DNA from: Actinomycetes bacterium
Lineage (GTDB): Bacteria > Actinomycetota > Actinomycetes > Nanopelagicales > Nanopelagicaceae
DNA length: 64,000 nucleotides
Direction: 5' to 3'
Assembly: GCA_947383695.1 (NCBI GenBank)
Contig: OX376642.1
Coordinates: 930,001 to 994,000 of the forward strand
Position numbers and translations under genes: made by a program. The notes below the pieces were generated by a model. It was not told the origin of the DNA and ran no database searches. It worked only from the letters and a program-made list of their open reading frames with translations. Below are positions 12,856 through 56,869 of the stretch, in pieces (position 1 is the stretch's first letter; the number at the start of each line of letters is the position of its first letter).

Positions 12856-12957
12856 GTCAGCCCCTAACTCTAAATACGAGTTCTCGGGGTGGGTGCAGGA
12901 GATTTTCCAGAAATGGAAAATGCACCATAAGGGTAGGCATGCGCCGACCCTTTGTTT

Positions 12958-13077: not shown

Positions 13078-13121
13078 AACGTCGTAATTCTACCCCGCTT
13101 TGCCCCATGCGCAGAACAGTA

Positions 13122-26898: not shown

Positions 26899-29643
26899 AT
26901 GGCAACTGAGCGATACTCGATTCACGAAGCGGAACTCTTGGCAAAAAAATATGCCAAGATCACCAGCGAGAAATCTTTCGCACAGACCTTTTGGAGAGAT
27001 GTCTTCCAGCAACTTTGTGGAGTAGATGACCTGCTGGCGACGGGCATCGAATTCGAATATCCAGTGCGTTCCCACGATTCGGGAAGTATCAAGTTCATCG
27101 ACGTTCTTTGGCCGGGTGTTGTTTTAGTTGAACACAAATCGGCTGGACAAAGTCTCGACAAGGCAGAGCAACAGGCGCGCGATTACTTAATTTCTCTCGA
27201 TGCTATAAAGCGCCCTCCGGTCATCATCCTTTCTGACTTCGCAAAGTTCCGAATTGTCGAAGTTCTCGCTGGCAAGAGTGTGGAGTTCGCACTCGGCGAT
27301 CTGCCACAAAATATTGGACGTTTCGAAGCTATTATCGGCGACGCTGGGATTGGTGCTTCACGTATTGAAGTAGAAGCTGATACCAAGGCAGCAAACCTAA
27401 TGTCTGAACTCTTCGTTCAGTTTGAGAAAGCTGGCTACACAGGCCATGAGGTTTCAGTTTTCTTGGTTCGCATTCTCTTCTTGCTATTCGGCGATGACAC
27501 CGCGATGTGGCGTCGAACAGACAAGGGGCTTTTCAGTGACCTAGTGAATAACTCGTCTGAGGACGGAACAGGTCTTGGCGCAATTCTTCAAGAGTTATTT
27601 GTAACCCTAAACACTTCGCGCGATAAACGCCCCACCACTCTAGCCGAATCCATGTCTGGATTTCCATACATCAACGGAGGGATATTTGCAGAGCAATTAC
27701 CAAACTTTAACTTTAATAAGTCGATGCGAACTGCTCTCGTTGCTGCGACTCAATACGACTGGTCGACTATCAGCCCTGCGATTTTCGGTTCTCTGTTTCA
27801 GAGCGTACGCGACGCTGAAACTCGTCGAGAAATGGGTGAGCACTACACATCTGAAACGAACATTCTTCGCTGTATCAACGACCTATTCCTAAACGATTTC
27901 TACAAGCGGATGCACGAGTCCTGGGATTCACCGCAAGCCCTCAAAGCACTTCGTATGGAGTTGGGTCAGTACAACTACCTCGACCCTGCATGTGGTTCAG
28001 GAAACTTCCTTGTAGTTGCATACAAGAGAATGCGGGATATAGAACTAAGAATCATTGCGCGATTACAAGAATTGGATAACAATCGAGCGCAACTTCAATT
28101 GGATGGTTCTCTCGGATTACAAGTTCATCTGGGCCAATTCCACGGTATAGAAATTGATGAATGGAGTGCTTCCATCGCACGAGTCGCTATGTTCTTAGCT
28201 GACCATCAGGCGAACCTTGCCCTGGAACAGATCACTGGTTCCGCACCGAATCGCTTTCCACTTACTGAATCTGCGGTGATTTTGAACGCCAACGCGCTCA
28301 CTACGGATTGGTCGACAGTCTGCCCAATGGGCGCCAAGACTTTCATAATGGGAAATCCTCCGTTTTTCGGAGCCCGTCTTCAAACGAGTGAACAAAAGTC
28401 AAATACCCAGGACGTGTGGAATAACATCAAAGGTGTTGGCGAATTGGACTTCGTTTCCAACTGGTACAAAATTGCGGCCACGCAAATGTCAAAGCACGGA
28501 GGACGTTCCGCGCTTGTTAGCACAAATAGCATTACTCAAGGCGTTCAACCGGCCATCATATGGACCGAACTTTACGCCTTAGGAATGCGAATTGATTTTG
28601 CACATCAAACCTTCAAATGGAGTAACGATGCTGGGGGTGTAGCGGCAGTTCACGTAGTCATCATTGGCTTTTCACATAACACGCAAACTGGAAAACGTAA
28701 ATTATGGGAGTACGCGGATATCAAATCAGCCCCGACACTTCGTGAAGTTGATAATATAAATGCGTACCTCGTAGATGCACCTGACGTCTTGATTAGTACT
28801 CGAACAAAACCTCTCTCAACTTCGACAGCGAAGTTGCTATATGGCAGCCAACCAAATGATGGAGGGTTTCTTTCGGACATAAGCACTGAGGAAGCGGACG
28901 AGATTCGGAAGAGCGATCCGATTGCCGCTAATTACCTTCGAAAAATTGTGGGTGCGCGAGAGTTAATTCACGATGTACAGAGATGGTGTCTATGGCTTGT
29001 AGACGCAACACCCAATGACATGAGAAATTCGAAGGTGATTTCGGAGCGAGTTGCGAAGGTAAAGACTCAGCGTTCTGCAAGCACACGCCCCGCAACTCAA
29101 GAACTCGCCAACACATCACATCTTTTCGGCTTTATTAGTCAACCAATTAAGCCATACATTGCGGTTCCGTTGCATAGTTCGGAAGAACGTGACTATGTTC
29201 CTATGGCATACCTCGCGCCCGACGTTATTGCCAATAATGCTCTATCTATTATTCCTGACGCTCCGTTGTGGCTCTTCGGAATTCTCCAATCGCGTCCGTT
29301 CAATGTATGGAACAAGTCCATATCTGGGCGACTTGAAAGTCGAGTAAGAATCAGCAACACAATCACGTATAACAATTTTCCTTTTCCTGTCTTAAATCCG
29401 GAAATGACTGCGCGAATAGAATCGGCAGCGCAAGGCGTCTTAGATGCTCGTGCCAAAAACCCAATCAGTTCGCTTGCTGATCTATACGAGTCGACGAGCA
29501 TGCCTGCAGAGCTCACCAAGGCTCATATGAAACTTAATTCTGAGGTCCTTTCGGCATACAACCTCAAGCCATCGGAAATAGACACCGCGATTCTTGAGAG
29601 ATTGCTGTCAACCTACTTGGAGCAACTTAAGCAAACGAAGTAG
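26899..29643 (+). CDS. MmeI-like fused restriction endonuclease-methyltransferase (type IIL)
   Basis: 914 residues, the size of MmeI. An N-terminal nuclease has D68-x9-E78-x-K80 within FIDVLWPGVVLVEHKSAG, the MmeI PD-(D/E)XK layout. A helical spacer follows (GYTGHEVSVFLVRILFLLFG), then an N6-adenine methyltransferase with DPACGSGNFL (about 361) and GNPPFFG (about 485), then a target-recognition domain and C-terminal helix bundle. One polypeptide should both cut and protect by methylating a single strand. All motifs look intact. Recognition sequence not predictable by eye. First gene of the accessory stretch; no other defence genes adjoin it. Confidence 0.9.
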   Translation: MATERYSIHEAELLAKKYAKITSEKSFAQTFWRDVFQQLCGVDDLLATGIEFEYPVRSHDSGSIKFIDVLWPGVVLVEHKSAGQSLDKAEQQARDYLISLDAIKRPPVIILSDFAKFRIVEVLAGKSVEFALGDLPQNIGRFEAIIGDAGIGASRIEVEADTKAANLMSELFVQFEKAGYTGHEVSVFLVRILFLLFGDDTAMWRRTDKGLFSDLVNNSSEDGTGLGAILQELFVTLNTSRDKRPTTLAESMSGFPYINGGIFAEQLPNFNFNKSMRTALVAATQYDWSTISPAIFGSLFQSVRDAETRREMGEHYTSETNILRCINDLFLNDFYKRMHESWDSPQALKALRMELGQYNYLDPACGSGNFLVVAYKRMRDIELRIIARLQELDNNRAQLQLDGSLGLQVHLGQFHGIEIDEWSASIARVAMFLADHQANLALEQITGSAPNRFPLTESAVILNANALTTDWSTVCPMGAKTFIMGNPPFFGARLQTSEQKSNTQDVWNNIKGVGELDFVSNWYKIAATQMSKHGGRSALVSTNSITQGVQPAIIWTELYALGMRIDFAHQTFKWSNDAGGVAAVHVVIIGFSHNTQTGKRKLWEYADIKSAPTLREVDNINAYLVDAPDVLISTRTKPLSTSTAKLLYGSQPNDGGFLSDISTEEADEIRKSDPIAANYLRKIVGARELIHDVQRWCLWLVDATPNDMRNSKVISERVAKVKTQRSASTRPATQELANTSHLFGFISQPIKPYIAVPLHSSEERDYVPMAYLAPDVIANNALSIIPDAPLWLFGILQSRPFNVWNKSISGRLESRVRISNTITYNNFPFPVLNPEMTARIESAAQGVLDARAKNPISSLADLYESTSMPAELTKAHMKLNSEVLSAYNLKPSEIDTAILERLLSTYLEQLKQTK

Positions 29644-30965: not shown

Positions 30966-31202
30966 CTACAAAGATGCTTCGCTGAGAGCCTTCTTCACAA
31001 CTACTTTTTGGAAGTACCCAGCGCCGAAACATAGGCACAATACGACATACCAAAAAGACTCAGCAGGTTTCATTGAGGCTACTAGTCCGCGCTCGTACAT
31101 AGCCTTCTTCATCGGGATCTTTGCAAAGTAACCTGCACCAAAAGCAATGCACTGTAGGACGTACCAAAAGGTTTCCATGCCAGTTAATTTCTTGTCGTTC
31201 AT
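30966..31202 (-). CDS. Small protein with an internal duplication (GAGYF-K repeat)
   Basis: 78 residues starting at the ATG with GGAGG 5 nt upstream. Two copies of one ~32-residue unit: METFWYVLQCIAFGAGYFAK and AESFWYVVLCLCFGAGYFQK, each followed by a basic VKKA/MKKA helix. Each unit has one hydrophobic helix, so the protein may be a two-TM or amphipathic membrane protein. No family recognised. The AATGGTCAT inverted repeat at 31261-31294 is upstream. Confidence 0.7.
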   Translation of the reverse strand: MNDKKLTGMETFWYVLQCIAFGAGYFAKIPMKKAMYERGLVASMKPAESFWYVVLCLCFGAGYFQKVVVKKALSEASL

Positions 31203-31260
31203 TAGTCCTCCTTGAGATTTATTAAAGGTTATGCCCAAAGGCAGGTAATTGCTTGCAATT

Positions 31261-31298: not shown

Positions 31299-32237
31299 TT
31301 ACCTCATCCATACAAGGGTTCTAATCCTGTTTAACCACACCAATTTGCAAGTCAATTGTCCGTAGTTTTCTGTTTGAACTACGGCTCCTAAGCTTGAACA
31401 TAATTGGAGCGGTGTGACATTGGATGTTCCCGAAGACCCCGAAGACCCCTGGCTATCTCTTTCCGCATCGGCTTCACGCTCTGCCAAGATTTCGAGTTCT
31501 TCCTGAGTCGGCTCGTTAGAGGGCGTGTAAGTAGATGGCTTACTCACATAATCCTCTTTTGCACATTTATTTGTCCAGTGCCAGCCAGTCATTTCGCAAT
31601 TTCTTATAGCTTGTAGGAAGTCTGCAAGGTCAACATAATCATCAGAGGCGCGGGAAAATGCGACACTTGTGTTGAAGTCTGACGAGTACCCGTCTGGATT
31701 TTCCTCGGCTCTAATGTCATCGATCAAAGTGCACCCTTGCGGGTTCTCTGAATCCATGTAATCTCCAAAGATTTTGGATGCAAGTGGATTCACTATATCT
31801 TTCCAACCATTTTCTTGTGTTGATATCGATAACATTTCTTCACGACTATAGGGAAACTCAATATCTGTCCCTTTGATGGCATCGGCAATTATGAAAATCG
31901 AGCCAGCGTAGTAATAAGCATCGGGGAATTGATTGCCTTTTTCCCTAGCAACAATGATTTCATCCAGAAATGGATACTTAGAGAGAATTTTCTCTTCAGC
32001 AGCCTTTCGTGATTCCACTCCTAGCAGTAATGCCACACTGTCATCATCTGCATATTGCGAGTCTGGAAAGACTTCTAGGCGTTCACCAATTTTTTGGAGG
32101 TTTGAAAAAATCTTGTCACAGTTTGCCTTGAGGGCTAATTCTTCTTTACTAGCCCCACATGAAGCTAGTAACCCGCCAATTAGAATCATCGAAAAGGCCA
32201 TGGACACTTGCTTGAAAATAGCTTTATCTCTCAACAT
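31299..32237 (-). CDS. Lipoprotein, paralogue of the upstream gene
   Basis: 312 residues, lipobox LASC (about Cys27). The mature part contains EEKILSKYPFLDE, VNPLASKIFGDYM, and RNCEMTGWHW followed by KCAKEDYVSKPS; the same landmarks appear in the 32264-33277 product (KEKILSVAPFLSD, VGPVVASIFGSFF, KDCEEKTYGDCSSKEYVS). A Ser/Gly-rich linker precedes a Cys-containing C-terminal segment. No known family. Last gene of the seven-gene tubulin/vWA unit, 26 bp after its paralogue. Confidence 0.7.
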   Translation of the reverse strand: MLRDKAIFKQVSMAFSMILIGGLLASCGASKEELALKANCDKIFSNLQKIGERLEVFPDSQYADDDSVALLLGVESRKAAEEKILSKYPFLDEIIVAREKGNQFPDAYYYAGSIFIIADAIKGTDIEFPYSREEMLSISTQENGWKDIVNPLASKIFGDYMDSENPQGCTLIDDIRAEENPDGYSSDFNTSVAFSRASDDYVDLADFLQAIRNCEMTGWHWTNKCAKEDYVSKPSTYTPSNEPTQEELEILAEREADAERDSQGSSGSSGTSNVTPLQLCSSLGAVVQTENYGQLTCKLVWLNRIRTLVWMR

Positions 32238-32263
32238 GTATTTGAATCGCCCCTGACTGCCAA

Positions 32264-33277
32264 CTAATCGATACTAAAACTGAGTACCGTTTTTTTGGAC
32301 CCAAAATTGTTTGTGTATGTGTAGTTGTTTCCTACTCTGACGGTTGCCGTATAGCGCATGCCTTCTTCTAGGCCACACTCAAAGAATGCGCCTACTTGCT
32401 CAACTCCATTTCTGTCATTCCAATATCCAAGTGCCAAACAATCACCCGTATTGTTGTCAGCTTGGAAAATTGAGAAGCTCAACTTTCCGCAACTAAATCC
32501 AGGTTCATTGTCATTAACCGTGATGTTGAGTTTCTGGCTACTGCAAGAAGTGTCTATAGTTGTGTCACCAGAACTTACATATTCCTTGGATGAGCAATCT
32601 CCATATGTTTTCTCTTCACAATCTTTGACCCACTCAAGCACTTCTAGTGCATCACCGTATGCCCACAGTACTTTCTCGTTCCAAAAATCCCAATCGTAAT
32701 TAGCGCCGCAAACACCTGGATCTGAGGTTGGATCACCAATCATTGGAGAACCAAAAAAACTTCCGAAGATACTCGCTACAACAGGACCAACGTAGTTGTC
32801 CTCTTCCAGCCAATCCCCGTTTAGGTAAGCGTCGCGATCTTCAGGCGAGAGCAATTCGCCTTCGGTCTTTTTAAAGAAAAACTCTAGGAGGTCGAGCTCT
32901 TGCTCGGAATCACTATAAATTTCAGTTTGCGTTCCATCTCCAATTTTCAGGTATGGAAGTTTGTCAAATTTTTGATCACTAAGGAAAGGTGCCACAGATA
33001 AAATCTTTTCTTTCATCTTTGTGCGCTGGTCTTTTCCAGTTAGAAGCTTGAAGGAATCCCATTTATAGTAATCTTCAATTGAATCAATTGTCGATGCAAA
33101 AGTTGCCACTTGGCCCTTTACTATGGCGCAGGTTCCTGCTTCGTCTTTTAGGGCTCTGACTCCCGATTCCCCACTTGAGCCGGCAGAACACCCAGAAATG
33201 ACCAATGAAAGTACTGCGACGCAAACAATTGAACGAAGCTTAAAGAGATAACGAGAATTTTGCGGAATTCTAGACAT
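32264..33277 (-). CDS. Lipoprotein of the tubulin/vWA operon
   Basis: 337 residues, lipobox ISGC (about Cys30). N-terminal helical domain shared with the next gene, then a Cys-rich C-terminal beta domain (DTSCSSQKLNITVNDNEPG, SCGKLSFSIFQ, FFECGLEEGMRYTATV) which the paralogue mostly lacks. Outward-facing, membrane-anchored. 14 bp after the preceding membrane-protein gene, so co-transcribed. Function unknown. Confidence 0.7.
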   Translation of the reverse strand: MSRIPQNSRYLFKLRSIVCVAVLSLVISGCSAGSSGESGVRALKDEAGTCAIVKGQVATFASTIDSIEDYYKWDSFKLLTGKDQRTKMKEKILSVAPFLSDQKFDKLPYLKIGDGTQTEIYSDSEQELDLLEFFFKKTEGELLSPEDRDAYLNGDWLEEDNYVGPVVASIFGSFFGSPMIGDPTSDPGVCGANYDWDFWNEKVLWAYGDALEVLEWVKDCEEKTYGDCSSKEYVSSGDTTIDTSCSSQKLNITVNDNEPGFSCGKLSFSIFQADNNTGDCLALGYWNDRNGVEQVGAFFECGLEEGMRYTATVRVGNNYTYTNNFGSKKTVLSFSID

Positions 33278-33291
33278 TTGATGTTTCTTTC

Positions 33292-35265
33292 TTAAATAAC
33301 CAGGTTTTCTGCACCTGGAATTGGCTCTTCATGTTGATCTGCTGCATGCAACTTTGTTCCGTGGGTGCTTCCTCCACGCTCCCATCGCTCTAGCTGTTCC
33401 TTTGTTGGCTTGAAATCAGAGAAAACAGCTACCTCATCAGGCTTACACCAGTCACTCAGGTCAACTCGGATGGCAACTTCAAATGGACGGGCGCCGGGAT
33501 TTACTGCAGATTCCTTAACAACACCTTCGCGGCATGGAACTCTTTCAGATGCGATGAAAATGCTCTCTACATGTTGATGGCGGTTGTTATTTGTGCCCTT
33601 TTCAGAGAAAGAAAGCGCTGACCAAGGTGATGCAAGGTCGGCAATCTCTGCGAGTTTTTCTTGCCAATTAACTTCGTACGCACTACCTGACATGCTCAGT
33701 GAGCCGTCTAGCTGCAATCCTGCGAGTGGATCTGGGCGTAATGAGACAACCTGTGGCTGCGAGAACGGGAGAACCTTCTCCTGCACAACTCTTGTGAAGT
33801 GCTCTACAAGGGCTTCACCAATAAGAGTTGCTGGATCAGGATTCTTACTTGCAGTAGCAACTAGCTGGCGCTTTCCAGTTTTGCGATGATCCTCGTCTAG
33901 TTCACGTACAGCCATATTGTTGCTGCCAAATCCGATTGATTCAGCCAAGGATTGCATTATGTTTTTGAAGGCTTCTGCACGCCAGCCAGGAATCTGAATT
34001 TGATTCATTGCCTTATTAACAAGCTCTTCATATTTAGGACTCTTGGCTGTGATTGTTGGAACAGCAACTTCGACACAGGATGGAAGTTTTGCTGTGTCAG
34101 GAATTGAGCCGTTAAACATCAGGCTCTCGTTATTCACGATCCATGGTTGATGCAAGCCAACTGAAAGAACTTCGAATAGCTGCGGAACTTGAGGATGTAG
34201 CGAATCAATTCTTTCACGTGCTTGCTTTACGGAATCAATTCCTTTTTCCATAGCCAAAGTTCTGTTGCTCTCTTCTGCAACCAGCTGCTGGTATTCAGAA
34301 TTTCTGCGGCTATAGGCGAAGAGTTGTCCAATAAATGTAAGTAATGAGATTCCAAAGATGACCGAAATAAGCTGCGGTAGAGAAAGTCCGATCGCTTGTC
34401 TTAGGAAGTAATCAAGACCCATTTTTAGGAATGAGCGTCCGCCAAAAGCATTAGCAATCAATGTACTTAGCTGATCTGAGAATCTATTGATCAATAGAAG
34501 GATGATTACCGCTATCCAAGAGATAGAGAAGTTCAGCCAGAATCTCTTCATAAACCACTTACGAGTCGATTCACCAAAACCCTCTGGGATTACTGGAACA
34601 GACTCTGAAAAGTCTCTAATTAGTTTTTCATCCAGGGCCAAATCACGTTCGTGACCCTTGATTCGGTTCATTAGTTGCCATGCATAACTAGCACGACGCT
34701 TTGTGACCCAATCTGTGAACTCTTCTTGAACCCCAACAAGGTTTTCAAGTTCATCGCCCTTGGCTTCCATTTGTTGATCCGACAAAGATGCACTTTCAGC
34801 AAGCTTTGTAATCTCGGTTTCAAGGGTAGCGATGCGTTTGCGAATTTCTTCTTCGCTCATTGACTCCTGTGGGGGTTCGACAGGAGCCACTGCTACTGCA
34901 GGTGCTTCTACGACCGGCTCAGCTTCAACTTGAGCAGGGGTAATAACCGCTTCAACCTCATCAGGTGTCTGTAGAGCTTCCTCTGTCTCTTCTGCCTTCA
35001 CTAGGTCTACTTCATGAAGGTCTTCAGCTTCAGAAAGTTCTTCTGTATCTACGGCCTTTTCAGATTCGGCTGCCTCTTCGGTTTCAGCAAGGTCGACTGC
35101 ATCCTCTGCAACTGCTACCTCGGCAATATCTTCTATTGCGTCAACTTCTTGAATGTTTTCAGTTACCTCGGCAGCTGCATCCACAATTTCAACTGTCTCT
35201 GCAGGAACTTCAGGTTCTGAATTCGCATCTGATTCTTGGCCTATAGGGCGACTGTTATCAAGCAT
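33292..35265 (-). CDS. Membrane protein with acidic N-terminal region and coiled coil
   Basis: 657 residues. Residues 1-~135 are a low-complexity acidic Glu/Ala/Val/Asp stretch, then a coiled coil (SEEEIRKRIATLETEITKLA). Two transmembrane helices follow at about 242-262 (FSISWIAVIILLLI) and 288-312 (PQLISVIFGISLLTFIGQL), then a ~330-residue C-terminal domain, probably cytoplasmic. Start at 35265 overlaps the upstream stop by 8 bp. No family recognised; the long acidic N-terminus and coiled coil suggest a scaffold for the tubulin-like filament (inference). Confidence 0.7.
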   Translation of the reverse strand: MLDNSRPIGQESDANSEPEVPAETVEIVDAAAEVTENIQEVDAIEDIAEVAVAEDAVDLAETEEAAESEKAVDTEELSEAEDLHEVDLVKAEETEEALQTPDEVEAVITPAQVEAEPVVEAPAVAVAPVEPPQESMSEEEIRKRIATLETEITKLAESASLSDQQMEAKGDELENLVGVQEEFTDWVTKRRASYAWQLMNRIKGHERDLALDEKLIRDFSESVPVIPEGFGESTRKWFMKRFWLNFSISWIAVIILLLINRFSDQLSTLIANAFGGRSFLKMGLDYFLRQAIGLSLPQLISVIFGISLLTFIGQLFAYSRRNSEYQQLVAEESNRTLAMEKGIDSVKQARERIDSLHPQVPQLFEVLSVGLHQPWIVNNESLMFNGSIPDTAKLPSCVEVAVPTITAKSPKYEELVNKAMNQIQIPGWRAEAFKNIMQSLAESIGFGSNNMAVRELDEDHRKTGKRQLVATASKNPDPATLIGEALVEHFTRVVQEKVLPFSQPQVVSLRPDPLAGLQLDGSLSMSGSAYEVNWQEKLAEIADLASPWSALSFSEKGTNNNRHQHVESIFIASERVPCREGVVKESAVNPGARPFEVAIRVDLSDWCKPDEVAVFSDFKPTKEQLERWERGGSTHGTKLHAADQHEEPIPGAENLVI

Positions 35266-36904
35266 GAGTCGATCCAATCTCGGATGAAGACAGAGCCTCA
35301 AGGCGTTCAATTAATGCCGTGAGCTCTTCCTCTTTCTTCGCTTTTTCTTGATCGGCTTCCGTTGTCTTTTGTCTCAACTCTTCAATCTGGGCATTCTTTT
35401 TAGCGACTTCACTTGTCAAGAACTGACCAAGATCATCAATCACTTCATCCTGTAACCACGTTGCGCTGCGAGGTTGAGATGGGACTGTGCGCTCGAAATT
35501 AGCAGGCAGAACCCATTCCTCTTTGACGTTAGGTACAACTTCATTGAGGTTGCCAACGACTAATTTTCCACGGGTCCCAGATTCAGCTGGGACTCCATCA
35601 GGCAGTACCGAAGCATCTAAGCGTCCAACTACTAATCTGCGAATTTCTTTCCAAAGAATTGGTTCTGACTTACGCAAAACATTGTGTGGCCATACTGCAA
35701 GAGTTTCGGCGATTTGCTTACGACGTCTAGCAATCTCGGTAATCATGATTTCTGCGCCTTTATCAAGATTTGTACGTGGGAAATCTATGCTTCCCTTAAC
35801 TACTTTGCGACCTCTGAAACCAAAAATTGTGCGAGAAACAAAACCGGCAATGGCATTCCATATTCCGGCAAAGATCCATAGTGGAAGCACCTTTAGAAGT
35901 GACCACGTTGTTCTAAAAAACTCCTTGATAGCGGTGAAGACACCTGTTTCTTCAGGTTCTGCCGGTGGCAACAGTTCAACTCTTGTGTAGCTCAAGCGGC
36001 CATTCGAGAATCCCATTGTGTGATTGACCATTTTTTCGATCTCATCAGCAAGGTTTGCGCTCTCGTAAGCTTCAAGAGTTTCGTTAGGAAATGGTCGCAA
36101 CGGATCAATCTTTGAAAGTTCTGCCTTCGCTGCGCGATCTAGCGCATCTGCTGCAACTCGAGTTGAAAGGCCTTCGCTAAGTACGCCGCGAACAAATGAA
36201 CGCATGAGCCGAACTTGACCCTGTACTGGTGAGAGATCCTGGAATTCAGCAGAATCTAGAATCCCTTTCTCTTGACCTGCCCAGATGCCACCCACTGCAG
36301 CTGCATTAGAAAGTATGAATCGATGCCAAACACTCTTATCCTCAGCTGTGACATCACGCGTCGCCTTATCAAAGCGAGAAGGAGTGCTTCGATCTTCAGG
36401 GGCAACAACCAAATTGATGTCCCAACTTGGTTCAAGTAAGTGAAGAGCAGATGCACCTTTTCGACTTGTTGGAGCAAAGACTAAATTTACGCGAACGAAT
36501 TTAGTCTGAGGGCGGTCAGCGCGATCGTCTTTGATTACAAGTGGACGAGCACTTTCCAGTGCATTCTTAACTTGATCGACAATCTTGTCTTGCAATGCGT
36601 CGTGCTCGCTGAGTTCATCAACTGTACGGATTGCAATTAGTCGTATCTGTTCGAAATCTTCGCGGCTTAGATAATCCAGCAGATCGATGTCTCTTCTTCC
36701 ATTACGACCAATGACACAACAAGTAATTCGAGGAACTGCGTCTTCAGAAACTTTGCTCTCACTGCTATGAACCCAAAATGCTGGTTTAAGCATCCAGCAT
36801 TGGGTCCACTCTTCAACAATATCGAGGATCTTCAACCCATCTTCTCCACTAGGAAGAAGAACTACAGAGGCTGCTCCCTCATGCCACAGTGATGACGAAC
36901 TCAT
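35258..36904 (-). CDS. Large partner protein of the tubulin-like gene, with hydrophobic central segment
   Basis: 548 residues. A globular N-terminal part (about 1-300), a strongly hydrophobic stretch at 325-360 (LLKVLPLWIFAGIWNAIAGF) that is probably membrane-inserted, a C-terminal region, and a terminal coiled coil (KKNAQIEELRQKTTEADQEK). Its ATG overlaps the tubulin stop (TGATG) and its stop overlaps the next start by 8 bp, so expression is tightly coupled. No recognised domain. Confidence 0.7.
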   Translation of the reverse strand: MSSSSLWHEGAASVVLLPSGEDGLKILDIVEEWTQCWMLKPAFWVHSSESKVSEDAVPRITCCVIGRNGRRDIDLLDYLSREDFEQIRLIAIRTVDELSEHDALQDKIVDQVKNALESARPLVIKDDRADRPQTKFVRVNLVFAPTSRKGASALHLLEPSWDINLVVAPEDRSTPSRFDKATRDVTAEDKSVWHRFILSNAAAVGGIWAGQEKGILDSAEFQDLSPVQGQVRLMRSFVRGVLSEGLSTRVAADALDRAAKAELSKIDPLRPFPNETLEAYESANLADEIEKMVNHTMGFSNGRLSYTRVELLPPAEPEETGVFTAIKEFFRTTWSLLKVLPLWIFAGIWNAIAGFVSRTIFGFRGRKVVKGSIDFPRTNLDKGAEIMITEIARRRKQIAETLAVWPHNVLRKSEPILWKEIRRLVVGRLDASVLPDGVPAESGTRGKLVVGNLNEVVPNVKEEWVLPANFERTVPSQPRSATWLQDEVIDDLGQFLTSEVAKKNAQIEELRQKTTEADQEKAKKEEELTALIERLEALSSSEIGSTHA

Positions 36905-39900
36905 CAGACAACAATCCCCGCATCATTAATCATTGCGTCGACATGATTGATAAGCGTTGTGAAGGCATCATCTGTCAGTGGGCGAATTTCTGTTGTTCGC
37001 GTGATATCCCAAGGCGCTTTGCGCTCATCTGCCAAACAAATGCTTGCAAGGAACTCTTCTGACTTCTTGAGTGTTGTAAGAACTGCGCTCTTTCTGTCAT
37101 CAAATGTGCCAGCCGCACTTCCTGCAATACCTTCAACAGGAATAGGTGCACCAACAGCTGTTTCTCCACGTCGAATCCAGTTTTCTAGAACATCCTGGAA
37201 ATCTTCGCCGAGCTTCATCATTGCCCAATATGGCTCAAGTGGTGTCAGAGTGCTGACCTGATCACATTGAGCAAGAGCTAAGCCAAGAGATTCAAGGACT
37301 GCTGGAAGCAGATCTGGGTTGGAAACGATGCTCTCGCTCTTTAGACCCAACAATGGATGTGGGAAGTCCACATTCTTTCGCTGGTCACGGTCGTAGATCG
37401 AAATCTTTGGGCCACGTGACGCATCTGCAGTAGCGGTTCTTAGGTTCAAGAGCTGTGAAACAAACCAACCGCGAACCAACTTACTAATTTGTTCTGGAGC
37501 CATTGGGATGGCTTCTACCAACGGACGAGAACGTCGATTAGTCCAGAAACCTTGACGTAATTGAATGGAGTTGTTGTTTCTGCTCCAAGATTCGATTACT
37601 GGATTCATAAGTGATGAGAACACCATTGGGTTCATAGCAGATGTCAAGGTTGAGAAGATATCGATCTGCTGGATTCCGCCAACTGCCTTAAATGACTTAG
37701 GTGATTCACTTGGATCCCAAAGATTTGCAGCTTGAATCTCGTGGACAGTGATGTCATAGAGATCCTTGAGGTTTCCTTGATCCTTGAATGGAATTGTGCT
37801 CATGTGAACATAGCGATCGCCCTTGCTCAGAACGTTGCTGTGAACTTGACCGATTAGGGCCTTATTCAGAGAACACAACGGCGCACTTAGCTTTAGCGCT
37901 GATGAAAACGCTGACTTGTATGCATTGATACGTGCGTTTGCAATCGTTGGATCTGGATGAGACAAGTATTCCTGTAGATCTTGAACCAAGAACTTACCCA
38001 GCGCCGTTACTGGATCGCTGAGCCAATCACGGTTACGTTCGATGTATTCATCGGTATCAGTGACAATTGAGAACTGTGCTTTCTGCGCACCTTCAGCATT
38101 GCGTCGGGCATTTGCATTCTGAGGAACCCAAGTTGCACGGCGCTCGATAAGAGTTGCCTCTTCATTATCGCCTCGAGAGTCCAGCTTTGTTCCCAAGGTA
38201 ATGCGCTCGATGAAGCGATTTTCCCAGTTAGCTTGAACATCTTCATCCAAGCTTTGCTGAATCAAGCCCTTCACGGTCTTTGGGAAGTCAGCGACATCGA
38301 TGAGCAAGCGCTCAACAACACTTGGGTTAAAGCGATCTGGAATAACACCGGTTGAAATGTTTGCATAGCTAGGGAATGGGTTTTGCTCACCACGACGATT
38401 CTGCGCAGCAGTTGCAGAGATCAATAGTTCTGAAACTGAATTGCGAAGAGATGTTTCAAGTGGTTGCAAGAAGGCGTTATCTAGGTCTGCCATCAATTCA
38501 GCAGCAAGATTGCGTCGGATTGCATTAGTGATAAAGCTAGCTGCCTTAACTAACACTGGCCCAACAACACTGCTCATAGCCTGTGTTTGAACTGCAGACA
38601 TTCCTTGCGGCATTCCATCGGCAATCTTTGAAGCGATCTGGTCTAGTTTGCGCAATTCACTTGAGGCTTCAAGAGGAAGTTCTTGAGTTGCGACAAACTT
38701 AACTTCTTCTCGAAGTTTTTCAACCAATCGAGAAGCAACGTTTAGTCCCTGGCGGGCTGCAATCAAAGAAACCGTTGAAAGGACACGATCTTGAATTTCA
38801 ACAGTCCAGTTTTGTGCTGCTTTGTAGATTTCTGCCTGCTCATCTGTTTCATACGCCTTGCGTTGCAAGTTAAAGTAATTAACAACACTTGAAATCCATT
38901 GATTAGCCGGTAATCCCGCAGGTGGTACGCCTGTTGAAACCTTTCCAATAATTCCTGAAGCGAAGGCCTTTGCGCGATCATCGATTCCAATCGGTGACAA
39001 TGCGTCGATAACTTCGTTCGAGTCACCGCGCTCATTGAGGCCAGATTCTGTAAGGAAATGGCTCCATGCCAATCCGACAGCTTCTTCAATAATCTGCTGT
39101 GGTGTTTGTGGGTTCATTGGATTAGGTGGAACAAACTGTGGCCAGAGCAGGCGTTCTACGCTCCACCGAGCCGCACCTTCTGCGATGTATTCAGAGAATC
39201 GATCAAGACCAAGACTTACGCGTCCCACACCAATAGATCCAAGAGGCTGTGAGTGGAACACATTTTGCGAGCTCTTCAACATTGATTCATCGTTACAAAT
39301 AATTGGGTTTGCTGAGTTAACGAATACGTTAACAATTGCGTACTCAACCATCCAAGTCTGAACCGCTTCATCTGCCACCAAGGTAGCTAAAGATTCGCCT
39401 GCTGCACGATAAACAGAATCCTGATCTCCAAATGAAACCTGGCCGTTTGATGCACCAATCAAATATGTATTACGTGGTCCAAAACCTGATGTTCCACGAC
39501 CATTTAGTCCAGCGTTATTAAACAGTGCTGTACTTCCTGCACCTGGACCTTCTGCCCACATTCCGGCAAGAGTTTCGTTCATCGCACCTAATGCGTTTGC
39601 TGGAATTGAATCACGCAAACCTTGTGGGATGTTGTTGAATACATCTGGACCGAAAAGAAGGACTTGTGTGCGCTTTTCAAAGTCAGCGCTCAATGACTTA
39701 AGCGCTTCAACAACATCAAGATAAATACCCGCACCAGAACCACCTGCGACAGAGCTAATGACCAGTGCCATAGGAAGCGGTGCTTGTCCTTCTGCTTTTC
39801 CGTACATCTTCATTGAAACTTCACGAAGTTCTTCTAAAACTCCTGGTGCGGAAAGACGACTATATGAACGATTGATAGCTTGTGAAAGCTGAGACAGTTG

Positions 39901-40281
39901 CGATGCAACTACTGCACGGCCAAGTGTTCGATACTGACCAGCGCCCTTTTGAATTGGGACGGCTGTGTTTTCAGGTAACCATCCGCCTAGTGCCAAATTT
40001 TGCTCTGTATTTGGCATGCGTTGAATCAACTGATTGCGAAGTCCTGCATAATCAACCGCTTGTGGAACAAGACCTAAAAACTGATTCGCTGGTAACAGTG
40101 GTGCCGAAAAGTTTCCGCCGCCCTGGGTTGAAATCGTGTCAATTTCTAGGAATTGCCAAGCTTCAGGGAACTCACCTTTCCAACCCTTTGAACGAAGACG
40201 ACGAAGCAAAGTCTGTCGCATTGCTCGGATTGTCTTTCCTCCCGAGCCTCCGACACCGATTATGAGAAATGGTGAGAGCAT
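36904..40281 (-). CDS. Tubulin/FtsZ-superfamily protein, large (Tubulin_2 / FtsZ-like type)
   Basis: 1125 residues, about three times FtsZ. The N-terminal GTPase shows LIIGVGGSGGKTIRAMR at residues 7-23 (equivalent of the FtsZ GGAGGN loop), EIDT at 46-49, and the tubulin signature SSVAGGSGAG at 176-185 (GGGTGSG in FtsZ). A helical region of ~700 residues follows. This matches the large FtsZ-like family reported in diverse bacteria together with a vWA protein and proposed to remodel membranes (literature recalled, not checked). Polymerisation and GTP use are inferred. Between the vWA gene (33 bp) and its coupled partner. Confidence 0.85.
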   Translation of the reverse strand: MLSPFLIIGVGGSGGKTIRAMRQTLLRRLRSKGWKGEFPEAWQFLEIDTISTQGGGNFSAPLLPANQFLGLVPQAVDYAGLRNQLIQRMPNTEQNLALGGWLPENTAVPIQKGAGQYRTLGRAVVASQLSQLSQAINRSYSRLSAPGVLEELREVSMKMYGKAEGQAPLPMALVISSVAGGSGAGIYLDVVEALKSLSADFEKRTQVLLFGPDVFNNIPQGLRDSIPANALGAMNETLAGMWAEGPGAGSTALFNNAGLNGRGTSGFGPRNTYLIGASNGQVSFGDQDSVYRAAGESLATLVADEAVQTWMVEYAIVNVFVNSANPIICNDESMLKSSQNVFHSQPLGSIGVGRVSLGLDRFSEYIAEGAARWSVERLLWPQFVPPNPMNPQTPQQIIEEAVGLAWSHFLTESGLNERGDSNEVIDALSPIGIDDRAKAFASGIIGKVSTGVPPAGLPANQWISSVVNYFNLQRKAYETDEQAEIYKAAQNWTVEIQDRVLSTVSLIAARQGLNVASRLVEKLREEVKFVATQELPLEASSELRKLDQIASKIADGMPQGMSAVQTQAMSSVVGPVLVKAASFITNAIRRNLAAELMADLDNAFLQPLETSLRNSVSELLISATAAQNRRGEQNPFPSYANISTGVIPDRFNPSVVERLLIDVADFPKTVKGLIQQSLDEDVQANWENRFIERITLGTKLDSRGDNEEATLIERRATWVPQNANARRNAEGAQKAQFSIVTDTDEYIERNRDWLSDPVTALGKFLVQDLQEYLSHPDPTIANARINAYKSAFSSALKLSAPLCSLNKALIGQVHSNVLSKGDRYVHMSTIPFKDQGNLKDLYDITVHEIQAANLWDPSESPKSFKAVGGIQQIDIFSTLTSAMNPMVFSSLMNPVIESWSRNNNSIQLRQGFWTNRRSRPLVEAIPMAPEQISKLVRGWFVSQLLNLRTATADASRGPKISIYDRDQRKNVDFPHPLLGLKSESIVSNPDLLPAVLESLGLALAQCDQVSTLTPLEPYWAMMKLGEDFQDVLENWIRRGETAVGAPIPVEGIAGSAAGTFDDRKSAVLTTLKKSEEFLASICLADERKAPWDITRTTEIRPLTDDAFTTLINHVDAMINDAGIVV

Positions 40282-40314
40282 TCTTTAGTTACCTTTCATT
40301 TGCGGTTGTATTTC

Positions 40315-43167
40315 TTACCAGTCGTCATTCTTCGAGCTAGAACTTCCGGAATTTCCGGTCGTCCCCCAATCATCATTGCTGGATGTCGTTGAGCTTCCCC
40401 ATCCATCATTTGAAACCGGAGTAGTGCTTGGTGCACTTGGTGCGCTTGGCGTTGAAGTTGATGCAGGTGTAGAGCTAGAGCCCCAGCCATCATCACTTGG
40501 TTTCGACGGTTGATCCCAATCACTTCCGGTTGAAGCTGGCGGAGGAGTTTCCGTTGCAGGCATGTCCTCAATCTTTAGAAGATTATTTAGCCAGCCAGCA
40601 TCGGTTGAAAGTTTCAAATTAAGTGCATTTACTTGCGTCACAGGATCTGCGCTATTGAAATTGAGAAGTCCAGTTAAGTTTCCTTCAATTGGGAAGTCTG
40701 GAGCATCACCGGTTTGATTCATTGCCTTAAGGGATGCAAGTGCGGTTTCAGAAAGTGTCAGGTGCATAGCAAATGCTGGATTCAGAGATGCAACAGCTTC
40801 ATGACGCTCTAGCCCATGCTTATTTGTAGACCAGATATCAGATGAAGCAACGATCATTCCTGGTGATGTAGCAAGAATTGCACGCGGTGCAGCAAATGGA
40901 TTAAGAGGCGCGTTTCCGCGAAGAGATTCTGATCCGATCTGAATCTGCTTTTCTTTGGATTCTGTGTGCAAGAAACCTTCGAAGTCAGATTCAGTGAAGA
41001 TATCTGTGCCTGAACCCTTTTCAGCACGCTTAACCGAAACAAATCCACCAGATGCAGTTAAAAGAACCGGTGTGGTTGCCTTGCTCAAAGGCGAGACCGC
41101 AATACGAGCTGCTCGGAGCTGCAAAATCTTCAATACAGTCAGCGGCAACATTAAGCCTAAGAACATGCAAAGCGCGAAGATAGTCCAAAAACGCGCATCA
41201 TTAATCTTTACCTTGGTCTCGAAGGAAACAGGAACTTGACCTGCAATGTCTTGTTGTCCATCGCTCTTAAATACAACTGGAATAAATCCTGAGACAACGC
41301 CGTCGGCTGACTCTGAATTTTTTATTTCAAGAAAGTAATTAAGGCTTTCACCTGCAGCTACTGGGATGCAATTAATGTCCTTTAGGTTTTTGCCATCCAA
41401 AGTCGCCTGATAACCATTGACTCGATTTGGATTTGGATCAGTACGAACCTCTAGATCCTTAAAGCACACTTCACCATTTGTGCGTGAAGGACCTTTGATC
41501 GTCACAGGTGCTGTCGCAGCGCCACTTTTGCCATCAAGTGGAGCGGTGAAATCTGAGGCATTGATTGGGTTTGGGTTCACTTCTGGATAAATCCCAGGTG
41601 CTAATGGCTGTACCTGCTGAATGGCAGAGAAGGTGAACTCGTAGCCAGATTTGGTGGTGACATCCAAGGTAACAATTAAATTGGCAAAACCCAGACTGTC
41701 AGTGCGTCCCGTGGGATTGAAAGAGGCTTTGAACTTTCCGGCGTCATCAAAAGTTAGAGCGCTGTATGAAATTGATTGGTTGGTTGGATCAACAAACCCA
41801 TAACGAAGATTCTTTGATTTGTAATCAGCAAAATTTACAGAACGACCAAGCTGGGTAATCGCACCATTGAATGAGCAACTTTCACCTTCGTAGCAAGGGT
41901 CATTTTTAATATCGATTGCTATATCCAAGTACCCACAAAATACGCTTCGAGCATAATCTTTTGTGGTGAAGGTCCACTTACCTGGAGCTAGTACCGAACC
42001 ATCAATAACGTTTCCTGACGCACTGATTGCTGCTTCATCAGCTCCAAAGTATGAAACTTGTACATCACCAACGGATGCACCTTTGGAATTGGCGAGTACT
42101 TGGCCTTTGGCATTCTTAAGTACAAATCCATCCTTCAGCGCACTAGCTTTGAAACGTGTGAAGCCTGGATCGATATTTATGCTGCCGCCCTGAGATTCGA
42201 TTACACGTCCACTTGATGTTATACATTCAAACTGCGTCGGTGGCCAAATGATGTCAATTGGGTCGCCAACTTCGGTAACAACACCTTTTGCTCCGATTGG
42301 CGAACCACACTTGATATCAAGCTTTGAAGCTCCACTGAAGTATGCGGTATCAACATTTCCTGAATATTCGACAATAGGTTTGAAATATGTCATTCCGCGT
42401 GATTCATCATCTACATCCGCTTGTTCGCGACCGTACTTTGATGGATTTGCAATTACATCCGCGTTACGAAGCAAGATTCCCTGGATGTTAATTCCAGATT
42501 TACGGAACTTATCAATCAAGGCAATTCCCCCCGTTGGGGCGCCAGTTCTCGGATTAACGGCACAAATTTCTTGGTAGGCCTTATCGGTAGCAGCCACGGT
42601 AGGACGCGATGTAACTGTTGGGCCTACGTTCAAAGCTCCATCAGTAAACCACAGCAAAATGTTGCAAGAGTTAGAAGTTATTTGTGGCTTCATGTAGTCA
42701 TATGCACCATTCAGGGCACGTGCATAATCTGTCGTCTTGCCACGGGTTAAGCCTGGAACTTTTGAATCAATCCAGTCCTTGTCACCGTCTAAAGACTTTT
42801 CTGATAGTTCAGCCCAACCTTTGCCCTCGATAACTTTGAAATCTTCAGCAAAAGTTGAAAAAGCTCGATTGACTGTGAAATATGGTCGATATTCTGCGAT
42901 GCTGGCAAACTGTTCTAGAGCTGATTTCAAACCCTCGACACGCAGATTTTGTTTATCATTCCAGCCCAAACTACCTGATTCATCAATCATGAACAATACG
43001 TTTACAACATCTTTCTGGCCGCTGCTGTTAACGCATGTAGCAATCTGTTGGACAGCCTGCTTTCCCCAATCAGATATTTCAGGCCCAGCCGTTGCGCCAG
43101 GTATCCCAGCCGACAGCATCCCGAACGAAATCAGTAATGTAGTTGTAAGTGCAAAGAATTTTCTCAT
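40315..43167 (-). CDS. vWA-domain transmembrane protein with Trp-motif cytoplasmic tail
   Basis: 950 residues. Signal peptide, then an extracytoplasmic von Willebrand A domain with an intact MIDAS: D62-x-S64-x-S66 in MIDESGSLGW, the Thr in GKTTDYARAL and Asp in LWFTDGALNVG. Beta-rich domains follow, then a single TM helix near 657-680 and a ~270-residue cytoplasmic part. The last ~75 residues are Ser/Thr/Pro-rich with repeats DDGWGSS, NDGWGSS, NDDWGTT and terminal NDDW. It could link an outside ligand to the cytoplasmic tubulin-like protein encoded next (inference). 3 bp after the small membrane protein gene. Confidence 0.85.
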   Translation of the reverse strand: MRKFFALTTTLLISFGMLSAGIPGATAGPEISDWGKQAVQQIATCVNSSGQKDVVNVLFMIDESGSLGWNDKQNLRVEGLKSALEQFASIAEYRPYFTVNRAFSTFAEDFKVIEGKGWAELSEKSLDGDKDWIDSKVPGLTRGKTTDYARALNGAYDYMKPQITSNSCNILLWFTDGALNVGPTVTSRPTVAATDKAYQEICAVNPRTGAPTGGIALIDKFRKSGINIQGILLRNADVIANPSKYGREQADVDDESRGMTYFKPIVEYSGNVDTAYFSGASKLDIKCGSPIGAKGVVTEVGDPIDIIWPPTQFECITSSGRVIESQGGSINIDPGFTRFKASALKDGFVLKNAKGQVLANSKGASVGDVQVSYFGADEAAISASGNVIDGSVLAPGKWTFTTKDYARSVFCGYLDIAIDIKNDPCYEGESCSFNGAITQLGRSVNFADYKSKNLRYGFVDPTNQSISYSALTFDDAGKFKASFNPTGRTDSLGFANLIVTLDVTTKSGYEFTFSAIQQVQPLAPGIYPEVNPNPINASDFTAPLDGKSGAATAPVTIKGPSRTNGEVCFKDLEVRTDPNPNRVNGYQATLDGKNLKDINCIPVAAGESLNYFLEIKNSESADGVVSGFIPVVFKSDGQQDIAGQVPVSFETKVKINDARFWTIFALCMFLGLMLPLTVLKILQLRAARIAVSPLSKATTPVLLTASGGFVSVKRAEKGSGTDIFTESDFEGFLHTESKEKQIQIGSESLRGNAPLNPFAAPRAILATSPGMIVASSDIWSTNKHGLERHEAVASLNPAFAMHLTLSETALASLKAMNQTGDAPDFPIEGNLTGLLNFNSADPVTQVNALNLKLSTDAGWLNNLLKIEDMPATETPPPASTGSDWDQPSKPSDDGWGSSSTPASTSTPSAPSAPSTTPVSNDGWGSSTTSSNDDWGTTGNSGSSSSKNDDW

Positions 43168-43170
43168 CGC

Positions 43171-43488
43171 TTAGATCTCCGAAAAGTTTCTAGCGATGAC
43201 AACAATTACAGGGATTGCAATAAGAAATCCAAGCACCGAAAGCATGCGGCTTAACTTGAGAATCTTTGCACCCGTCGCCATGTCATAGTAAATATTTGAA
43301 CTTGCGGTCGTGTTTTTTGTTTGCGCTATCGCCATCATTAAAATTGGCGTGAATGGCGTAAGCAGGTATGCAAAATAAATGAGTGCTGACGCCTGTAAAG
43401 CTGGGACAAAATAAATAGTTAAACTCAATAGGCAGGCCATTGCGCCAACAATGATTGGAATCCATGATGGCCGAGTTGCGGTTTGCAT
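43171..43488 (-). CDS. Small three-TM protein heading the tubulin/vWA operon
   Basis: 105 residues with helices at about 9-26 (WIPIIVGAMACLLSLTIY), 33-55 and 80-98 (MLSVLGFLIAIPVIVVIA). Begins the operon and ends 3 bp before the vWA gene. No family recognised; the conserved placement implies a membrane subunit of the complex. Confidence 0.65.
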   Translation of the reverse strand: MQTATRPSWIPIIVGAMACLLSLTIYFVPALQASALIYFAYLLTPFTPILMMAIAQTKNTTASSNIYYDMATGAKILKLSRMLSVLGFLIAIPVIVVIARNFSEI

Positions 43489-55100: not shown

Positions 55101-56869
55101 GCTACAACCTTGTAGTAGTAAGTCTTACCACCATCCAAGAATGAAATATTCAAGGTTACATTGTAGAAATTGGTTCCTCCACTGATATCAAATGGAGATG
55201 CGGCTACCGAGTTTGTATTAACTTTGAAATCTGGATCTGTTCCATACATAAATGTCACTGTTGTCGCAGCGTTACCAGCCTGTGCAACACCATTCAGAGT
55301 TGCGCTGTAAGCAGTGATGTTTGTTGCAGGAGCGATACGCGCAATCGGAGCAGTAACCGGAGGTGGCAATGTTGTAAATGATCCGATGTTACTTACTGTT
55401 CGACCTGATTCATTAACGCCGATAATTCGGAATGAGTACTTTGTTGCCGCAGATAGTCCCGTAAGTTTCACGGAGGCTGTTGTAGGCGCTCCCCCATCAA
55501 CCATTCCAGGTATAACGGTTGCTGTAGAACTTGTAGTAAAAGTTGAATCTACTGAATATTCGAAACTTAATGTTGTTGGTGCATATCCTGGATTAACATC
55601 AATTAAAACATCAGCACTTTGGTGCGTAATGTTTGTAATGCTCTTTTGGGCAACAACTGGCGCAACGATTGGAGCTCCACCATCGGTTGGTGACACATAC
55701 AAAAGCTTGTTGACTGTATCTACCTTTAAGCCTGTGATCGCATCCTTGGTTGATTCTGCATCTAAATACTGTGCAACCTGTGCAACTGAGGCGGTTGGAT
55801 TAAGCCCTAAGTAAATTGCGACTGCACCTGTTACGTGTGGAGTCGCCATAGAGGTACCGCTGGCTGAGTATGTGGCATCTGGTGTACCGATCCAGGATGA
55901 AAGAATGCTTGATCCTGGTGCGAAAATATCAACGCATTTGCCTTGGTTTGAGTAATAGGCAGGCGCATCAAGCAAAGTTGTTGCGCCAACAGTAATGGCC
56001 GATGGAGTGCTTGCTGGTGAACGAGTACATGCATCTGTTGATTCATTACCAGCGGCTGCAACAACTGTAATTCCGGCATTTGTTAAACGAAGGATCGCTT
56101 CATTCAGTGCAGCAGATGCTGGTCCACCGATACTCAGATTCAAAACAGCTTGGGTTTTTGGATTTGGATTTTCTGGGCTCAAGATCCAGTCAAGTGCTGT
56201 AATAACAGATGAGTACTTTCCACTACCTGTGCAATCTAGAAGTCGAACTGGAACCAAACGAGCATTCTTAGCTAAACCGTATTGTGTTCCTGCAGCTGTT
56301 CCTGCAACGTGAGTACCGTGACCATTACAGTCAACAGTTCCATTTCCATCATTAATCGATGAGAATCCTGAAGTAGATAAGCGTCCGGCAAAATCTGTGT
56401 GAGGGAAAATTCCTGTATCGCCAATATAAATCGTTGCACCTGCTCCTGCGCTGCGATATCCGTATGCGCTTGTCGAGCCAGGTAGACCAACCTTTTCACG
56501 TTGATCAACGCGATCTAATCCCCATGCAGGAGTTGGTGACTGAGTATTTTGAATTGCAAGTCCAGTTACAGCTTTATCTTCTTCGACTGTAAGGACATTT
56601 GGAATCTTAGAAAGTAATGATGCGACAAGCTTTGGAAGTTCAACGGTGTAACCATCAAATACATAGTTGTACTTCGAATCAATCTTCCAACCATTCTTTG
56701 TAATGGCAGCCTCAACTGCGGCTTTGGCTGAAGGAGTTACCGAGATGATGTACTTAGCTTTGGCGCCGAGATCCAACGCTGTGGTTGGGACCATCGTTGA
56801 GCTGAGCGAGAAGATGGTCAGTACGACAACAATCGAAACGCGTAACTTAGCCAGTGCCTTTGAACGCAT
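52133..56869 (-). CDS. Giant S8 serine protease with fibronectin-like and Ig-like repeats
   Basis: 1578 residues. Signal peptide, I9-type propeptide (about 36-100), subtilisin domain with D151 (IGDTGIF), H184 (NGHGTHVAG), N275 (AAAGN) and S340 (SGTSMATPH). Fibronectin-III-like repeats run to ~900, then a long Thr-Pro linker (about 824-903), beta domains, a second Thr-Pro linker (about 1130-1160), and Ig-like Cys-bearing repeats to the C-terminus. No anchor motif, so secreted or cell-wall associated. AGGAG lies upstream of ATG 56869. All catalytic residues present. Confidence 0.92.
53391..53478. repeat. Short Pro/Thr-Ala-Pro coding repeat
   Basis: About 88 bp of GGAGCTGGCGTT/GGAGTAGGTGTT-type imperfect hexamers in the giant protease gene. 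They code the second Thr-Pro (TPAPTP) linker. Confidence 0.8.
54159..54398. repeat. 40-unit GGTGTT hexanucleotide array
   Basis: 240 bp of GGTGTT in perfect tandem, interrupted only by four GGAGTT units near 54283-54317. In the giant protease gene it codes a Thr-Pro linker. Hexamers keep the frame, so slippage alters only linker length. Not a CRISPR: there are no spacers. Confidence 0.97.

Follow-up and report, generated by a model that had tools for sequence, protein, structure and literature searches.

The DNA analysed here, called the window below, is a stretch of 64,000 nucleotides from the genome of a freshwater actinobacterium of the family Nanopelagicaceae (contig OX376642.1, positions 930,001 to 994,000). 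On its minus strand, between 31299 and 43488, lie seven tightly packed open reading frames (ORFs), g1 to g7, with gaps of 3, 33, 14 and 26 bp and two overlaps (1 and 8 bp); ORF calling on the window reproduced the coordinates and spacing given in a preliminary description of the same DNA. The third gene, g3, encodes a member of the FtsZl1 family (FtsZ-like 1; Pfam Tubulin_2, PF13809), and it is preceded by a gene for a von Willebrand factor A (vWA) protein, g2. Together, the conserved genes may produce a scaffold of tubulin type beneath the membrane, perhaps assembled from two proteins shaped like tubulin, and next to it a sensor-like protein on the outside of the cell.

The family itself has been known since 2010 (Makarova and Koonin, 2010; PMC2875224), and the large FtsZ-like family associated with vWA proteins to which the preliminary description refers is a real one. 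The portion of that paper available to us, to which all our statements about it refer, reports that FtsZl1 co-occurs with vWA proteins and proposes a role in membrane remodelling, while keeping open the option of a switch. Since then, FtsZl1 has stayed an orphan within the tubulin superfamily, and whether it possesses the parts for forming filaments was left there as an open question. A literature search whose coverage took in few subscription papers and preprints found no experimental study of the family among the papers listed. What is added here is a sharper anatomy, namely a four-protein module, a complete but split fold predicted for g3, and a possible pseudo-tubulin partner.

The conserved module and its distribution

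A scan of bacterial contigs yielded 62 further loci, mostly from Actinomycetota, which together with the window make 63. These loci (L numbers) are partly non-independent: L046 and L055 come from one and the same genome, the pair L025 and L059 likewise, and L028, L030, L031 and L068 are not independent of the genomes G091, G013, G250 and G629. Neighbours were counted with iterated profiles, and only at loci with room for them (3.6 kb upstream, 4 kb downstream). Relatives of g2 were found beside g3 in 52 of 53 such loci and relatives of g1 in 50 of 53; downstream, g4 is represented in 49/50 and g5 in 45/50. Wherever the genes are present among the loci listed, they keep the order g1-g2-g3-g4.g5 on a single strand. 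The first gene is missing in L027, L061 and L068, and g5 in L027, L061, L063, L073 and L077; all of the latter except L027 are Acidimicrobiia, or are so labelled, and have a more diverged partner. In 38 of the 46 loci that have both g4 and g5, the two form one ORF (g4.g5), and separate ORFs are found in the other eight (the window, L026, L030, L032, L046, L055, L080 and L081).

The conserved unit therefore consists of four proteins: g1 with three transmembrane (TM) segments, the vWA protein g2, the tubulin-like g3 and the partner g4.g5. The preliminary description had taken the seven genes as one operon with partners of no known family. As a unit, the seven-gene operon does not stand, since the lipoprotein genes g6 and g7 are present in only one of the 63 loci and most relatives have a single protein where the window has g4 and g5. 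With regard to the partners, g1, g4 and g5 are indeed conserved beside g3, and none of g1, g4, g5, g6 and g7 reaches the cut-off of any Pfam, NCBIfam or PADLOC family; however, g4 and g5 represent a single conserved protein that is split in the window, and g6 and g7 have no relatives in the 62 other loci. These two genes, whose products look like lipoproteins at their starts when judged by eye and are remote paralogues (25% identical, E 8e-7), were ruled out as core parts on the same count of 1/63. Protein kinases, P-loop GTPases and OmpA, which are frequent but non-obligatory partners of FtsZl1, were not found by Pfam among the seven genes. A scan for promoters and terminators returned fewer sites than in shuffled sequence.

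The vWA protein g2 matches Pfam VWA_2 at the limit of detection (E 6.5e-6, 27.2 bits, cut-off 27). Both pieces of its metal ion-dependent adhesion site (MIDAS) are present, DESGS at residues 62-66 and TDG at residue 175, and the pattern DxSxS plus [ST]DG is kept in 51 of 55 vWA proteins. The predicted topology comprises a hydrophobic start, a vWA domain outside the cell, one TM segment and a tail inside, the end of which looks disordered. An intact MIDAS and a cytoplasmic tail had already been noted in this protein; the motif was recovered, and the placement of the two parts outside and inside is a prediction.

Within the host's family, 3 of 201 sampled genomes, the host itself included, carry the gene, whether the search is made with g3 or with Pfam Tubulin_2. 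Across the phylum, g3 as query found it in 8 of 396 genomes (host included, two of the matches weak) and Pfam Tubulin_2 in 10 of 296. The occurrence is patchy in both family and phylum, and the module is therefore an accessory system. The closest relative of g3 is about 36% identical, and two Rhodococcus plasmids carry a relative with 25% identity. In the host genome, a single contig of 1.43 Mb, the Tubulin_2 gene is the only one of its kind, and an ordinary FtsZ is encoded elsewhere (FtsZ_C match at G000:C1:843607-843891), as in the genomes with FtsZl1 described in 2010. A phage or viral origin was ruled out: relatives of g3 are absent from 50,697 phage records, and a scan of viral contigs with A1 confirmed none.

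A search by synteny for an empty site found the anchor gene, a glutamate dehydrogenase-like gene, in different surroundings in two relatives. Just upstream of the module in the relative G013 lie three small families (a 90-aa protein, a protein that looks RDD-like by eye, and a 555-aa MGLFGPKK protein), an observation that takes in L004:5053-7937. The same three are scattered in the window at 30966-31238, 60057-60458 and 60466-62133, with 58-69% identity, and they can be read as a shared flexible gene pool. The locus L027 is odd in that pieces of three g3 copies stand in tandem on a 12.8-kb contig with no match to g4. Errors of binning or naming may lie behind its label (Bifidobacterium breve) and behind the labels of L048 (Luminiphilus) and L040 (Planococcus).

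Table 1. Position of the module genes, their motifs and predicted segments, and the two local additions (window coordinates; residue numbers refer to the protein named).
Feature	Position	Strand	Basis
g1, small protein, about three TM helices, 105 aa	43171..43488	-	hydropathy
g2, hydrophobic start, vWA domain, one TM segment, tail of about 265 aa predicted cytoplasmic, 950 aa	40315..43167	-	Pfam, hydropathy
MIDAS motif DESGS, g2 residues 62-66	42970..42984	-	motif
predicted TM segment, g2 residues 658-684	41116..41196	-	hydropathy
g3, Tubulin_2 / FtsZl1 protein, 1125 aa	36904..40281	-	Pfam, AlphaFold2, Foldseek, VIA-align
T1 loop GVGGSGGKT, g3 residues 9-17	40231..40257	-	alignment, 57 rows
T4 signature AGGSGAG, g3 residues 179-185	39727..39747	-	alignment, 57 rows
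predicted helical insert inside the tubulin fold, g3 ~380-735, long helices 459-624	38077..39144	-	DSSP of model; borders by hand
predicted C-terminal tubulin/FtsZ domain, strands and helices, g3 ~736-879	37645..38076	-	model; strand names by hand
g4, N-terminal part of partner protein, 548 aa	35258..36904	-	relatives beside g3
g5, membrane-anchored C-terminal part of partner	33292..35310	-	672 aa from TTG
g5, alternative start ATG	33292..35265	-	657 aa; in-frame; gives the 8-bp overlap
two predicted TM segments, g5 residues 256-279 and 306-334 from TTG	34309..34545	-	hydropathy
g6, lipoprotein-like, local addition, 337 aa	32264..33277	-	1/63 loci
g7, lipoprotein-like paralogue of g6, local addition, 312 aa	31299..32237	-	1/63 loci

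The tubulin-like protein g3

The tubulin signature first noticed in the 1125-aa protein is borne out by a match to Pfam Tubulin_2 with E 2e-34 (119.8 bits, cut-off 27). An alignment was made of 57 rows, that is, the window's g3 and 56 ORFs of the 62 loci, incomplete g3 ORFs being left out. Residues G9, G11, G12, G14, G15, K16 and T17 of loop T1 are invariant in it. In T4, where the AGGSGAG of g3 is a variant of the GTP-binding loop type GGGTG(S/T)G, G180, G183 and G185 are found in 57/57 rows and G181 in 56/57. The asparagine of T6 (N279) is kept in 46 of the 57 rows. In columns 268-382, inspected without coordinates, nothing that reads as a canonical T7 (NxDxx[DE]) was seen from H7 to S7 of g3.

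AlphaFold2, run on the 57 sequences, produced a model of g3 with a predicted local distance difference test (pLDDT) score of 91.4 and a predicted template modelling (pTM) score of 0.84. Foldseek related this model to CetZ (3zid, E 3.4e-5) and also to FtsZ and tubulins. In VIA-align, the matches were CetZ (Z 23.9, 304 of 342 residues, root-mean-square deviation 3.9, model residues 2..907), the TubZ of phage c-st (Z 21.8) and Bacillus subtilis FtsZ 2vxy (Z 19.8, 278 of 306 residues, model residues 2..884). All superfamily matches listed for g3 start at residue 1-3 and end between 884 and 1042 with only 278-373 residues aligned, which implies a large insertion. From DSSP and motifs, with names given by hand, S7-H9 was placed at residues 347-379 (GSIGVGRVSLGLDRFSEY), a segment that resembles the S7-H9 motif of FtsZ; a low-scoring alternative of the hhalign comparison with FtsZ aligns the same residues. 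Strands S8 to S10 were placed at about 736-879, after a helical insert of some 350 residues, and a C-terminal extension follows. It is predicted with good confidence that g3 has a complete tubulin/FtsZ fold, C-terminal domain included, that is split by the helical insert. The tubulin fold expected from the signature is thus what AlphaFold2, Foldseek and VIA-align return. By sequence profile, the hhalign comparison of g3 with FtsZ gives E 0.052, or 0.0019 with a broader profile, and profile comparison is therefore a weak instrument at this distance.

As in the FtsZl1 family of 2010, g3 combines an N-terminal GTPase domain bearing T1 and T4 with a long helical middle and a helical C-terminus, and its operon also encodes membrane proteins and a vWA protein that bears a MIDAS. 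According to the available text of PMC2875224, similarity to tubulin in T6-H7 and in the C-terminal domain was not confidently found, and three options were listed. The model of g3 differs from that picture, in that it displays a complete fold in which the helical part is an insert; it favours the first of the three options, a C-terminal domain that is present but strongly diverged. A survey of 2023 (PMC9871819), as far as its text was available, set FtsZl1 aside and states that the family has no FtsZ_C or Tubulin_C domains. A C-terminal tubulin domain displaced by an insert, as predicted here, bears on whether the family can form filaments. With CetZ, TubZ and FtsZ, g3 would share the fold, as the scores given above indicate, whereas it is about three times as long as these proteins and no T7 of the canonical form was seen in it.

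The partner g4.g5 and its counterparts in distant clades

For the partner, the alignment A4 was built from 36 of the 39 long g4 ORFs (three from Acidimicrobiia being left out) and the two parts from the window. Hydrophobic stretches occur in the middle of the protein in all 36 fused partners listed, and in most of these there are two separate segments. A mid-protein TM hairpin is predicted with good confidence, and two TM segments would place both ends of the partner on one side of the membrane. In the window, the preliminary description had seen two large membrane-associated proteins; this is upheld for g5, with its two predicted TM segments, and is weak for g4, because only one borderline segment is found there.

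An AlphaFold model of the fused g4.g5 of Georgenia (L067), with pLDDT 82 and pTM 0.70, consists of two alpha/beta domains, one at each end, and of long helices between them in which the TM stretch lies. When this model was compared with VIA-align, each of the 50 matches listed was a chain from a tubulin or microtubule entry (Z 9.2-11.1; 249-269 residues aligned), and in these matches model residues 1 to 840-846 lie on tubulin residues 5 to about 400. With Z 11, this likeness of the model to tubulin is suggestive only. That g4.g5 is a degenerate tubulin relative, or pseudo-tubulin, with its N- and C-terminal parts on the same side of the membrane, is supported but not proven.

Six further Tubulin_2 loci of the phylum were inspected (L023 and L128-L132). 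In L128, L129 and L023, the last of which is cut by a contig end, the gene after the tubulin gene encodes a protein of 730-920 aa (776 aa in L129) that has a TM hairpin in its middle; L130 stops after the tubulin gene. In L132, from genome G380, two neighbouring ORFs on the minus strand (L132:6512-8233 and 8645-10141), each about 500-570 aa long, resemble Tubulin_2 weakly and are perhaps one gene that has been split.

Six sequences of the L129-type partner were aligned, five of which have a Tubulin_2 ORF directly upstream, while the sixth stands at a contig edge. They begin with a strand and GLGxxG, carry an asparagine at the T6 position of g3 and contain a motif similar to S7-H9 of g3. Their profile (six rows) matched Tubulin_2 in hhalign with probability 96.5, E 8.5e-10 and a score of 91.4 over 273 columns; the same comparison gave a maximum of 24.1 in 25 column shuffles, 23.7 for the reversed profile and 34.4 for FtsZ. 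The part before the hairpin alone matched with E 8.7e-9; the 293 columns of this match reach from T1 to helix H9. When 396 genomes were searched with a partner profile of four rows, there were seven matches: the six partners, among them the four rows themselves, and a Tubulin_2 protein of G257 (E 9.1e-5). In the opposite direction, the L129-type partners did not come up in a plain hmmsearch that used the Tubulin_2 profile and a limit of E 1e-3. Because the hhalign match stands well above the shuffles and the genome search led to a Tubulin_2 protein, the membrane partner of the L129 type is very likely related to tubulin, with the T4 signature absent.

Partners of other types accompany the family elsewhere. 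The G378-type partner was found in 23 of 150 genomes of one genus, beside a Tubulin_2 ORF in 20 of the 23 loci, and some of the partners of this type and of those from Thermales and Azospirillum share, by eye, a strand-helix start.

Proposed assembly and competing readings

The reading that we prefer, at a probability of roughly 0.48, is that g4.g5 acts as a membrane-anchored pseudo-tubulin that pairs with the cytosolic GTPase tubulin g3 and couples it to the vWA protein outside. In this proposal, g3 would bind GTP and pair end-on with g4.g5, which would give a membrane-tethered heteropolymer or a capped oligomer, and the helical inserts of both proteins would stick out as arms. With its tail in the cytosol, the vWA protein could report an outside event to the scaffold or be held by it. 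A tubulin filament may assemble beneath the vWA protein, as had been surmised in the preliminary description.

Two unlike tubulin-fold proteins from one operon would recall BtubA/BtubB and alpha/beta tubulin, if the partner is a tubulin relative; here, in contrast, one of the two lacks T4 and is membrane-anchored, and the dimer is putative. FtsZ is anchored to the membrane by an adaptor of the SepF or ZipA type, whereas the anchoring of g3, if any, would be through a partner from the same operon. A pseudo-tubulin partner was not found in the available text of PMC2875224, in whose list of partner families g1 or g4.g5 may figure.

Several observations weigh against this pairing, and most of them bear on the partner. 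Foldseek of the g4.g5 model returned nothing at E <= 0.001 in PDB or BFVD, and comparisons by hhalign of A4 with Tubulin_2 profiles, g3, FtsZ and sub-domains were not significant. Among the Pfam families listed, Tubulin_2 is matched by none of 38 partner members at E 0.1. The VIA-align matches represent one fold repeated in a redundant library, with candidates supplied by Foldseek, and for helical models the tool itself cautions that a Z under about 13 may arise by chance. The resemblance of g4.g5 to the L129-type partner extends over 38 columns by the TM hairpin (E 2.5e-4) and lies otherwise in position and architecture. No significant match to Tubulin_2 was obtained with the G378-type partner (13 rows from 23 loci plus the query), with the Thermales partners (two, then four rows) or with that of Azospirillum (one row). 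The partner is also not universal, since none was seen beside the tubulin gene in L131, L132 and Cylindrospermopsis.

A serious competitor, only a little less probable than the pairing itself, is that g4.g5 is no tubulin relative at all and serves as a lineage-specific coiled-coil membrane adaptor, its structural match being a chance fit of a helical model. The absence of sequence signal and of a Foldseek match for g4.g5 itself, together with a Z of 11 that falls within the tool's unsafe range, speaks for this explanation. However, the L129-type protein, a significant relative of Tubulin_2, has the same operon position and architecture, the VIA-align match of the partner runs from tubulin residue 5 to near 400, and profile comparison is weak at a distance where even g3 and FtsZ are barely connected.

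Whether the module serves in defence is a separate question. Three Thermales plasmids carry a trio of vWA protein, tubulin-like protein and partner of about 680 aa with brxL after it, immediately so in M. taiwanensis and T. oshimai and behind an insertion sequence in A. silvanus, a likeness to bacteriophage exclusion (BREX) and DUF499/Hma loci. The fourth case, in T. thermophilus SNM3-3, is a remnant: ahead of brxL lie the partner and, behind a transposase, what is left of a tubulin gene, and the vWA protein is not annotated. The four Thermales loci are L145, L146, L174 and L175. The fuller picture in which a giant GTPase, with a helical arm inserted in its tubulin fold, and a degenerate pseudo-tubulin embedded in the membrane (two proteins in some freshwater Actinobacteria) form a two-subunit cytoskeletal scaffold that is coupled across the membrane to a vWA sensor, and that is used in Thermales for phage defence beside BrxL, is rather doubtful as a whole. 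Still somewhat less likely is a general anti-phage or conflict module, subject to frequent loss, with the vWA protein or the membrane as the sensor of an attack and the tubulin-fold proteins as a GTP-driven switch or effector. The patchy occurrence in family and phylum would fit such a role, as would the helicase, methylase, exonuclease or DUF499 (HmaC) genes near the Thermales trios, the trypsin-like domain within the L019 partner (L019:5587-8838, minus strand, E 1.3e-28) and the trypsin-like gene beside the module in L023 (L023:7307-8290, plus strand). In the window, a type IIG restriction enzyme-methyltransferase (26899-29643, plus strand; PADLOC E 2.4e-299) lies 1.7 kb from g7. Nevertheless, no excess of defence genes was apparent, PADLOC matches being scattered both in 177 of the 194 flank ORFs listed (36 loci) and in 84 control ORFs, a comparison made without per-protein counts and with two relatives' genomes as a less than ideal control. 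No PADLOC model matched the seven proteins below E 0.035, two Deinococcus copies adjoin OmpA and not defence genes, and no BREX gene was seen in the window. The available main text of a 2026 survey of BREX (PMC12839542) contains, by term search, neither tubulin nor FtsZ.

The published proposal for the family (Makarova and Koonin, 2010), in which a GTP-dependent filament remodels membranes or forms vesicles, appears unlikely for this module. TM segments are predicted for all but one of the four module proteins and a complete tubulin fold would make filaments more plausible, but no module gene matches a known remodelling factor in Pfam or NCBIfam, and a reviewer of the 2010 paper had already objected to the topology. 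An equally improbable view is that g3 is a non-polymerising GTP switch, an option left open in 2010, in which the insert of about 350 residues, the C-terminal extension and the missing T7 motif block protofilaments; both tubulin domains of g3 are still matched despite the insert, and all characterised proteins of the superfamily form filaments according to the 2010 authors, although filament-coupled hydrolysis by g3 is unproven because no canonical T7 is seen, which also counts against the pairing that we prefer. Should the partner prove to be a pseudo-tubulin anchored in the membrane, relatives such as those from Subtercola or Microbacterium would make it possible to test whether filaments assemble at the membrane and whether this assembly is coupled to a receptor outside.

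Away from the module, the window contains an FMN riboswitch (12954-13081, minus strand) and, at 52133-56869 on the same strand, a gene for a subtilase of 1578 aa that has FN3-like matches and in which Thr-Pro repeats form very long tracts.

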